Shown here: piece after piece, positions 460-7,742 of the stretch
Numbering within the stretch: position 1 is the stretch's first letter
Layout: the number at the start of each line of letters is the position of its first letter
Assembly: GCA_016193065.1 (NCBI GenBank)
Contig: JACPSX010000200.1
Location: forward strand, 1 to 16,964
Length of the DNA: 16,964 bases
DNA from: Candidatus Tectimicrobiota bacterium
Lineage (GTDB): Bacteria > JACPSX01
Reading direction: 5' to 3'
The notes under the pieces: model-generated
The model's input: only the letters and a program-made list of their open reading frames with translations
Database searches by the model: none
Told to the model about the DNA's origin: nothing
Program-made: the position numbers and the translations under genes

Positions 460-480
460 CTTGATAATAGTACAATCAAG
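460..480. promoter_or_regulatory. HAIR-like operator (putative HspR site)
   Basis: The site is an inverted repeat CTTGATA-N7-AATCAAG. It has the same 7-7-7 architecture as the HAIR element bound by the heat-shock repressor HspR (CTTGAGT-N7-ACTCAAG) and matches five and six positions in the two arms. It overlaps the -35 box of the promoter at 461-489, as expected for repression. The sequence just downstream encodes an Hsp20 C-terminus, so the context agrees. HspR itself is not in this window, so the binding protein is inferred. Confidence 0.6.
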
Positions 481-489
481 TTATATATA
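461..489 (+). promoter_or_regulatory. Sigma70-type promoter of the hsp20 remnant
   Basis: A -35 box TTGATA (461-466), a 17-nt spacer and a -10 box TATATA (484-489) sit in an AT-rich island. The -35 box lies inside the left arm of the HAIR-like repeat. The predicted start near 496 leaves a short leader carrying a near-perfect Shine-Dalgarno sequence. Confidence 0.6.
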
Positions 490-527
490 GATAATCGAGT
501 CATGGCTAGAAGGAGGTGAACAACGAG

Positions 528-632
528 GTGGATCCTGAGAAGGTCGGGGCCGAGTACAAAGATGGGGTTCTCAGGATTACCCTTCCCAAGGTAGAGGCGG
601 CAATCCCGCGGAGAATCCAGATCACCGGTTGA
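528..632 (+). pseudogene. hsp20: Truncated Hsp20 small heat-shock protein, C-terminal fragment only
   Basis: The frame GTG 528 to TGA 630-632 encodes 34 residues that read like the very end of a bacterial Hsp20: VDPEKV, then [14 protein letters not shown] (the beta8 region of the alpha-crystallin domain), then a linker and RRIQIT, which holds the I-x-I motif (I30-Q31-I32). Homology appears to begin two codons earlier (Asn-Glu, from 522). A full Hsp20 has about 140-150 residues, so roughly 100 N-terminal residues are absent. The fragment is nevertheless placed exactly like a gene: AAGGAGGTGA (510-519) lies 8 nt before the GTG, a promoter with a HAIR-like operator is upstream, and a perfect terminator follows. 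The simplest reading is an internal deletion that joined the 5' leader to the last codons; an assembly error is also possible. An in-frame TAG just upstream shows no longer product is made. The Hsp20 call is firm; whether the fragment is translated is unknown. Confidence 0.75.
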
Positions 633-644
633 TCCTGGACCTAC

Positions 645-682
645 AAGCAAAAGCCCCGGGCAAGCCCGGGGCTTTTGCTTTT
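645..682 (+). terminator. Rho-independent terminator after the hsp20 remnant
   Basis: A perfect 17-bp stem, AAGCAAAAGCCCCGGGC paired with its exact complement at 664-680, closes a very tight loop. The arm ends in TTTTGCTTTT. It begins 13 nt after the hsp20 stop codon. The A-rich ascending arm could let it work in both directions. Confidence 0.85.
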
Positions 683-4580: not shown

Positions 4581-5542
4581 CCGCCGAGCTTACCTCCAGG
4601 GACGTCAAAGAAAAAGCCCGGGAACTCGGCGCGGATCTCGTTGGCATTGTTGCTGGCGTCTCTCTAAACGCAAACCCACCGGATCCCAAAATTCCCCAGA
4701 CTCCGGAGCGGATCACTCCCGACTCAAAAAGCGTGATTGTCTTAGCCAAGGCCTTTTTGCGGGGCACCTCTCGCCTGAAGGGGAAAAACGACCGTCACAA
4801 GCAATACTCGGCCGAGCTTCAGTTCAGTGAGCTGGAAGAAATATCCCTGCGGCTTGTCTACTTTCTCGAAGATCACGGCTATCCTTCCATCACGGTCCCC
4901 CCCATGCATAACGAAGCCCTCATGTACCGGGCCGACGGCCGCAGCCATGGTCCCCTCTCCCTCCCCCACGCCGCTGTGGAAGCGGGCCTGGGAACCCTGG
5001 GGCTCAACCTCATGCTGCTTACCCCCGAATACGGCCCCCGGGTCCTGCTCGGTGCGGTCCTGACCTCAGCGGACCTGGAGCCGGACTCCAGGATGGAGAC
5101 TGCACTCTGTTTGGGGGAGGAGTGCGGTCGCTGCCTGCTCACCTGTCCGGGCGACGCCGTCCTGCACTGGGGTCTTGATGCCGCCAAATGCGCCCCCCAT
5201 GCTTCCCCCTACGGGTTCGAGTTTCTCCTCAACCACATGGAGAACATCGTGAAAACCCCCGAAAAGGAAAAGCAGCTTGCGCTCTTGCGCAGCGCCGAAA
5301 CGTTCAATGCCTGGCAGAGTATTCTGCGCGGCGTTGGCGTTTACACCGGTTGTACGCGGTGCGTGGACGTTTGCCCTGTGGGGAAGGATTACGAGGCCCA
5401 CATCAAGTCCGCTCAGGAGGAAATCCCCGAGGAAACTCCGCAAAAGCGGGCCCGTCTGGCCGAAATGCTCAAGCGTCGCAGAAAGGGGGACCCGATCGTC
5501 GGTTTGGAGGCCTCACGGCGCTGGATTGGAAACCGCCCGTAG
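4577..5542 (+). CDS. QueG-like double 4Fe-4S cluster protein (paralog 2)
   Basis: A 321-residue paralog of the preceding protein, with the same layout: LGADLVGI at 18-25, GLGTLGLNLMLLTPEYGPR at 137-155, first cluster motif CLGEECGRCLLTCP (Cys178, 183, 186, 190), an extra Cys205, and second motif CTRCVDVCPVG (Cys259, 262, 266). Both clusters should assemble. The ATG at 4577 overlaps the upstream stop by ATGA, so translation is coupled and the two products are probably made in equal amounts, perhaps as a heterodimer. The open frame extends upstream to 4412, but that part overlaps paralog 1 and has no counterpart in it. The residues between ~55 and 130 differ most between the two paralogs, so substrate or partner contacts may have diverged there. 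Catalytic function is not known. Confidence 0.85.
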   Translation: MTAELTSRDVKEKARELGADLVGIVAGVSLNANPPDPKIPQTPERITPDSKSVIVLAKAFLRGTSRLKGKNDRHKQYSAELQFSELEEISLRLVYFLEDHGYPSITVPPMHNEALMYRADGRSHGPLSLPHAAVEAGLGTLGLNLMLLTPEYGPRVLLGAVLTSADLEPDSRMETALCLGEECGRCLLTCPGDAVLHWGLDAAKCAPHASPYGFEFLLNHMENIVKTPEKEKQLALLRSAETFNAWQSILRGVGVYTGCTRCVDVCPVGKDYEAHIKSAQEEIPEETPQKRARLAEMLKRRRKGDPIVGLEASRRWIGNRP

Positions 5543-5819: not shown

Positions 5820-7742
5820 ATGGCAGATTCAGAACAACCCACGAACTTTGGCGGATTGCGCGTAGCGGCCTTCGAGAGCCGCTTTGCCCCGGAGATGGCG
5901 CGCCTCATCGAAAAGTCCGGCGGCCAGCCCCTGGTGGCCCCCTCGATGCGCGAGATCCCGCTTGAGGAAAACCCCGCAGCCCTGGCCTTTGCCGAAAAGC
6001 TTTTCGCGGGACAATGCGACGTCCTGATTCTCCTGACCGGCGTAGGGACCCGCACGCTCGTGGAGGCCATCGAGACCCGCTACCCACGGGAAAAAATCCT
6101 GGAGGGACTGCGCCGGGTGCTGCTGGTGGCCAGGGGTCCAAAGCCGGTGGCGGCCCTCCGTTCCTTTGGAATCACCCCGCAGGTGATCGTCCCCGAGCCC
6201 AACACATGGCGCCAGATCCTGCAGGCTCTGGATGGCGCAATTCCGCTGCCCGGCCAGCAAGTCGCCGTGCAGGAGTACGGCATCCCCAACCGCGAGTTCC
6301 TGGCTGGGCTCGCGGGGCGGGGGGCCAACGTGATGCGTGTCCCGGTCTACAAATGGGCCCTGCCGGAGGACCTCGGCCCTCTCAGAAATGCCATCCAGGA
6401 GATCAGCGCGGGAAACGTCCACGTGGTCCTCTTCACCAACGCCCAGCAGGTTCAGCATCTCCTGCAAGTGGCCGGGAAGGAGGGCGTGATCGAGGGGCTG
6501 CGGCGCGGGGTGGCGCGGACGGTGATCTGCTCCATTGGGCCGGTGGCAAGCGAAGCTCTAGAGAAACAGGGGTTCCTGGTCGACTTCGAGCCGGAGCATT
6601 CGAAAATGGGGATCTTTGTCAAGGAAGCGGCCCGGATGAGCCGGAATCTGGTGGCGAGCAAACGGCGGCCGGTCATTACGATCGAGACCCCGGCGGCTGC
6701 GGCGGACCGGTTGCGTGACAGCCTCTTTCTGCGAGCCTGCCGCCTGGAACCCACGGAGCGAACGCCGGTTTGGCTCATGCGTCAGGCAGGGCGCTATATG
6801 AAGGAATACCGCGACCTGCGCGAGCGGGTCGGCTTCCTGGACCTCTGCAAGAACTCCGAGCTCGCCGCAGAGATCACCGTGAGTGCCGTTCAGCGCCTCG
6901 GCGTCGACGCGGCGATTCTCTTCGCGGATCTGCTCCTGGTCGTCGAGCCCATGGGTTTCGAATTGGAATACAGTAAGGGAGAGGGGCCGATCATCCACAA
7001 CCCCGCTCGCACGGCCGCCGATGTGGACCGGGTCCGCGCGGCTGACCCGGCCGATCTGGGATACGTCTACGAGTCCGTCCGCAAAGTGCGTGCGGCCCTT
7101 CCCGCCCATCTCCCGCTCATTGGCTTCGTCGGGGCGCCGTTCACGCTGGCCTCCTACCTCGTTGAAGGGGAGGGGACGCGGAACGCCGTGCTGACCAAGT
7201 CGCTCATGTACCGCGATCCGGGGGCCTGGCGGGCCATGATGGAGAAGCTGGTAACATCCCTTGCCGGCTATGCCAACGGGCAGGTTGCCGCCGGCGCGCA
7301 GGCGATCCAGATCTTCGACTCCTGGGTCGGCTGCCTATCTCCCCGGGACTACCGCGACTACGTCCTCCCCTTCACCCAGAGTCTGATCCGGCAGATCTCG
7401 GCTGTCCCGGTGATCCATTTCGGGACGGGAACCGCGACGCTGCTCGAACTGATGAAGGAGGCCGGAGGACAGGTCATCGGCCTGGACTGGCGGGTGAACC
7501 TGGACGAAGCCTGGGCCCGGCTCGGGAAGGTAGCGATCATGGGGAATTTCGACCCGGTCACGCTCTTTGCGGATGCCAAAATCATCCGCTCCCAGGTCGA
7601 GCGGATCCTCGCCCAGGCCGGCGGCCGCCCGGGGCACATCTTCAACCTGGGTCACGGGATCCTGCCGGGGACTCCCGTTGAAAACGTGATCGCCCTGGTG
7701 GAAGCAGTGAAAGAACTAAGCTGCCGGAGCACGGAAGCGTAG
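5820..7742 (+). CDS. hemD-hemE: HemD-HemE fusion: uroporphyrinogen-III synthase / uroporphyrinogen decarboxylase
   Basis: A 640-residue two-domain cytoplasmic enzyme. Residues ~10-275 match HemD (GLRVAAFESRFAPEMARLI near the start, LLTGVGTRTLVEAI, then VVLFTNAQQVQHLL and SIGPVASEALEKQGF), which closes hydroxymethylbilane to uroporphyrinogen III. After a linker (~276-300), residues ~300-640 match HemE, which decarboxylates uroporphyrinogen III to coproporphyrinogen III: PVWLMRQAGRY (316-326, Arg321 and Arg325), the catalytic Asp370 in ILFADLLL, Tyr446 in APFTLASYLVEG, and His612 in NLGHGILPG. All key HemE residues are present. The fusion would hand the unstable product directly to the next active site. 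An in-frame TGA two codons before the ATG rules out an earlier start, yet no Shine-Dalgarno is visible. It is followed closely by hemH and hemY as an operon. Confidence 0.93.
   Translation: MADSEQPTNFGGLRVAAFESRFAPEMARLIEKSGGQPLVAPSMREIPLEENPAALAFAEKLFAGQCDVLILLTGVGTRTLVEAIETRYPREKILEGLRRVLLVARGPKPVAALRSFGITPQVIVPEPNTWRQILQALDGAIPLPGQQVAVQEYGIPNREFLAGLAGRGANVMRVPVYKWALPEDLGPLRNAIQEISAGNVHVVLFTNAQQVQHLLQVAGKEGVIEGLRRGVARTVICSIGPVASEALEKQGFLVDFEPEHSKMGIFVKEAARMSRNLVASKRRPVITIETPAAAADRLRDSLFLRACRLEPTERTPVWLMRQAGRYMKEYRDLRERVGFLDLCKNSELAAEITVSAVQRLGVDAAILFADLLLVVEPMGFELEYSKGEGPIIHNPARTAADVDRVRAADPADLGYVYESVRKVRAALPAHLPLIGFVGAPFTLASYLVEGEGTRNAVLTKSLMYRDPGAWRAMMEKLVTSLAGYANGQVAAGAQAIQIFDSWVGCLSPRDYRDYVLPFTQSLIRQISAVPVIHFGTGTATLLELMKEAGGQVIGLDWRVNLDEAWARLGKVAIMGNFDPVTLFADAKIIRSQVERILAQAGGRPGHIFNLGHGILPGTPVENVIALVEAVKELSCRSTEA

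Follow-up and report, generated by a model that had tools for sequence, protein, structure and literature searches.

The window analysed here is a whole 16,964-nucleotide stretch, contig JACPSX010000200.1 of the Candidatus Tectimicrobiota bacterium draft assembly GCA_016193065.1. Close to its first position lies the remnant of an hsp20 gene, in which an operator-like repeat, a promoter-like sequence, a ribosome site and a terminator surround a short C-terminal coding frame. The features of this unit are:

460..480, + strand: HAIR-like inverted repeat, a putative HspR operator (CTTGATAATAGTACAATCAAG), 11 of 14 positions matching CTTGAGT-N7-ACTCAAG
461..466, + strand: -35-like hexamer TTGATA within the left arm of the operator, read from the sequence, with the layout of the intact hsp20 gene on contig C15
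484..489, + strand: -10-like hexamer TATATA, read from the sequence, at 17-nt spacing from the -35
510..519, + strand: perfect Shine-Dalgarno sequence AAGGAGGTGA
517..528, + strand: approximate and putative deletion junction, placed by homologue alignment, with 5' leader on its left and Hsp20 codon homology (N-E-V-D-P) on its right
528..632, + strand: what is left of the hsp20 frame, GTG-528 and the 33 codons after it plus the stop, with the beta8 region and I-x-I motif (I-Q-I) and a match to PF00011
645..680, + strand: terminator-like perfect 17-bp inverted repeat (645–661/664–680), then the T-rich tail TTTTGCTTTTG, from repeat and fold analysis

The remnant coding frame and its expression signals

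The frame is open from 516 to 632, between a stop codon at 507–509 and the terminal TGA at 630–632. In a PF00011 profile search, window positions 522–626 matched the C-terminal third of the Hsp20 profile (positions 65–102 of 102) with 30.6 bits and an E-value of 3.8e-7, above the curated cut-off of 20.8 bits, so that the initial annotation of the 34 codons as an Hsp20 C-terminus holds. Profile positions 1–64 are absent, and with them the complete alpha-crystallin domain of ∼90–100 residues; of the gene as a whole, the first three quarters are lacking. The estimate that about 100 codons are missing also agrees with the alignment, where homologues carry ∼92–114 residues ahead of the matching stretch; only sequences in the correct frame were compared, leaving out loci L011–L014 and L016. 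The remnant thus shares with Hsp20/alpha-crystallin proteins (PF00011) the C-terminal beta8 region and the I-x-I motif, but differs from them in having no N-terminal region, no more than part of the domain and no native start codon. There is no ATG anywhere in the frame, and GTG-528, which sits 8 nt past the Shine-Dalgarno sequence, aligns with an internal Val codon of the homologues. The 34 codons contain no internal stop and retain the conserved motif, as both a recent deletion and selection would predict.

The signals around the frame were largely as first described. The TTGATA-17-TATATA promoter is present as sequence (461–466 and 484–489), AAGGAGGTGA lies just upstream of the 34 codons at 510–519, where it forms the full complement of the usual anti-Shine-Dalgarno sequence, and the 17-bp inverted repeat running into TTTTGCTTTTG is indeed a perfect terminator-like structure. 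The further statement that every expression signal is intact was too strong, however: the native start codon is missing, TATATA shares just four of six bases with TATAAT, and a strict generic promoter scan of the window did not list this promoter. A five-codon frame, ATG GCT AGA AGG AGG TGA, at window positions 502–519 contains the Shine-Dalgarno sequence and ends inside it; it may be there by chance.

Putative HspR operators at heat-shock promoters of the genome

The HAIR consensus, CTTGAGT-N7-ACTCAAG (PMC6102357), is that of Streptomyces, and the arms at 460–480 read CTTGATA-N7-AATCAAG. A genome-wide count of the bare pattern CTTGA-N11-TCAAG gave four occurrences against four in the reversed control, that is, no enrichment, and scoring was therefore done with the full consensus, at promoters of known heat-shock genes. 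The site of the remnant matches it at 11 of 14 positions, and the background of sites this good or better is 0.021 per kb (23 in 1.11 Mb of the same genome). Sites of the same quality lie 98 nt before the clpB start and 74 nt before the dnaK start (11/14 each), and one of 10/14 precedes the intact hsp20 gene on C15. The promoter of this intact gene is TTGGCA-17-TATAAT; it and the remnant have in common a -35 hexamer in the left arm of the operator and 17 nt to the -10.

The gene directly after the intact hsp20 on C15 encodes a protein that scores 114 bits against the HspR equivalog NF047375 (cut-off 105). Two findings make the operator of the remnant convincing: an HspR gene adjoins one of the intact hsp20 genes, and clpB, dnaK and the C15 hsp20 carry sites of 10–11/14. 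The proposal of an HspR-type operator on an hsp20 gene is thereby strengthened, and on this sequence evidence the remnant was very probably once an HspR target. As in the HspR/HAIR-controlled units of Streptomyces and Helicobacter, there is an inverted repeat with a 7-nt spacer, the -35 lies in the left arm, and HspR is encoded; the difference is that the operator here reaches 11/14 to the Streptomyces consensus, and it is best called a putative site.

At the intact hsp20-hspR unit (L127, C15), the HAIR-like site is closely followed by a palindrome-like element, ATATAATGCACCTGGTGCATATTAT, which shares bases with the -10 region. It is possible that this is a second operator.

Relatives, neighbours and the proposed deletion

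Apart from the remnant, the genome has just two Hsp20 matches, both of them full-length genes, and over the matching stretch the remnant is 39–40% identical to each of these intact paralogues. This level of identity to both indicates that it derives from a third hsp20 paralogue.

The short protein was also searched against 59 genomes, including its own, which is the sole member of its phylum in the set. Matches were obtained in 52 of the 59 (own included), and none of them was a stand-alone Hsp20 C-terminal frame; across these genomes, which include no close relatives, no matching open frame shorter than 115 aa was present outside the window. Searches with DNA and with the short protein found no syntenic locus in the 58 other genomes, all of other phyla. 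The closest relatives of the neighbouring MBL-fold protein were ∼50% identical in the contig scan. All other genomes returned as relatives have only the domain in common.

Further along the window, positions 5820–7742 encode HemD (uroporphyrinogen-III synthase) fused in frame to HemE (uroporphyrinogen decarboxylase). The fusion is followed by ferrochelatase and then by a flavin amine oxidoreductase, which is probably protoporphyrinogen oxidase.

Taking frame and signals together, we are confident that the locus is a third, HspR-controlled hsp20 paralogue which has lost its middle and its start codon through one internal deletion, and which is either non-functional or a product of the assembly. 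A single internal deletion of ∼300–330 nt, between the Shine-Dalgarno spacer and the N-E-V-D-P codons, would have removed the start codon together with ∼100 codons. The anatomy of the locus supports the earlier suggestion that an hsp20 gene lost its middle by one event. What falls away is the argument that the sparing of promoter, ribosome site and terminator calls for a special explanation, since all of these lie outside one internal deletion: with the deleted interval internal to the transcription unit, operator, promoter, Shine-Dalgarno sequence, last 35 codons and terminator were bound to be spared. HspR would be expected to repress a transcript of ∼190 nt (∼496 to 685). Any peptide made from GTG-528, being without most of the alpha-crystallin strands, would presumably be unable to fold as a chaperone, and in the form given by the assembly the locus most likely has no function.

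The junction is flanked by a repeat, AAGGAGGTG/AACGAGGTG, with eight of nine bases in common, and no longer repeat is found across it. Recombination between AAGGAGGTG and AACGAGGTG was considered as the cause of the deletion and was ruled out, as both copies are still present.

Assembly fault, true deletion or functional product

Within this explanation lies a narrower one, whose probability is contained in that of the whole: the full-length hsp20 exists, and the junction arose from contig or scaffold joining or from a minority deletion variant that entered the consensus. We put its chances a little short of even. The draft assembly consists of 294 contigs and is 86% complete; a 1.1-Mb sample of it contains 19 N gaps, 2–87 bases in length. 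Many of the pseudogenes apparent in bacteria are reported to be possibly of technical origin (PMC11017572). Four other conserved genes also carry out-of-frame deletions lacking N, which would be odd for a living cell in the case of clpB and ilvI.

The clpB gene lies directly upstream of dnaK (L124, C177, 5215–5245); ∼70 nt are lost at 5220–5240, within the first AAA domain, with a change of frame and no N. In a second ClpB/ClpC-like gene (L125, C159, 2500–2540), more than 150 nt are lost at ∼2520, again with a frame change and no N, and the missing region runs from about residue 445 to the second AAA domain. Smaller frame-breaking deletions without N were seen in an ilvI-like gene (L146, C17, ∼14 nt at ∼4859) and in a conserved gene on C216 (L252, ∼59 nt at ∼2817). 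The first three are the interruptions left in a screen with E. coli proteins as probes, which covered ∼1.1 Mb of the genome with 158 kb aligned; the C216 case came from another query set. The same E. coli-protein screen of control sequence, with 97 kb aligned, gave no interruptions. The excess of four over none is suggestive only, being not significant alone with so small a control.

Several candidates were removed from this screen. Three RbsA ‘interruptions’ are probably pieces of neighbouring ABC transporters, and one in a nuoH-like gene on C21 coincides with an N gap. A variant with control-loci proteins as queries was set aside, except for C216, as it inflated the control counts, probably through queries that span frameshifts or gene borders.

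Other properties of the junction speak against a fault of assembly. It contains no N, and with no repeat beyond eight of nine bases, a k-mer assembler should need reads that span it. Scaffold gaps also seem to be well sized, judging from the nuoH-like gene, where the sole N gap within an alignable gene holds 56 N for ∼51 missing bases. Overall, assembly fault and true deletion come out about equal, and that the junction is real in cells is rated slightly below an even chance. As in truncated and assembly-made bacterial pseudogenes, the remnant has lost most of its coding region and kept the flanking signals, and other genes in the same assembly are likewise interrupted. The remnant is ordinary, most likely a broken gene or an assembly fault rather than a new mini-protein.

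Selection for the short product had been one of three options offered for the locus. Here, a heat-induced, HspR-controlled microprotein of 34 residues would place its I-x-I motif in the beta4-beta8 groove of the two intact Hsp20s and so loosen their oligomers. An operator, a Shine-Dalgarno sequence 8 nt before GTG-528 and a terminator do surround the frame, the genome offers two intact Hsp20 partners, and binding of free C-terminal peptides to a crystallin core domain is on record, though weak, with a KD of about 70 μM (PMC3638394). Nothing specific to the locus speaks for a regulatory I-x-I peptide, however. The native start is gone, none of the matches from the other searched genomes is a C-terminal frame standing alone, and further genes of the assembly are similarly broken; this option finds no support, and we regard it as very unlikely. 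Less likely still is an HspR-controlled small RNA of ∼190 nt with the coding remnant incidental: the promoter-to-terminator unit and a fold z-score of -2.3 would suit it, but the latter probably comes largely from the terminator hairpin, beyond which the centroid fold shows little structure, and the region has no Rfam match.

The preferred reading remains a third hsp20 paralogue broken by one internal deletion, in the cell or in the assembly. The remnant matters little in itself, and serves as a reminder that promoter and terminator always survive when the deleted part is internal to their transcription unit. As several conserved genes carry clean out-of-frame deletions, gene losses called from this draft, that of clpB included, need read support.
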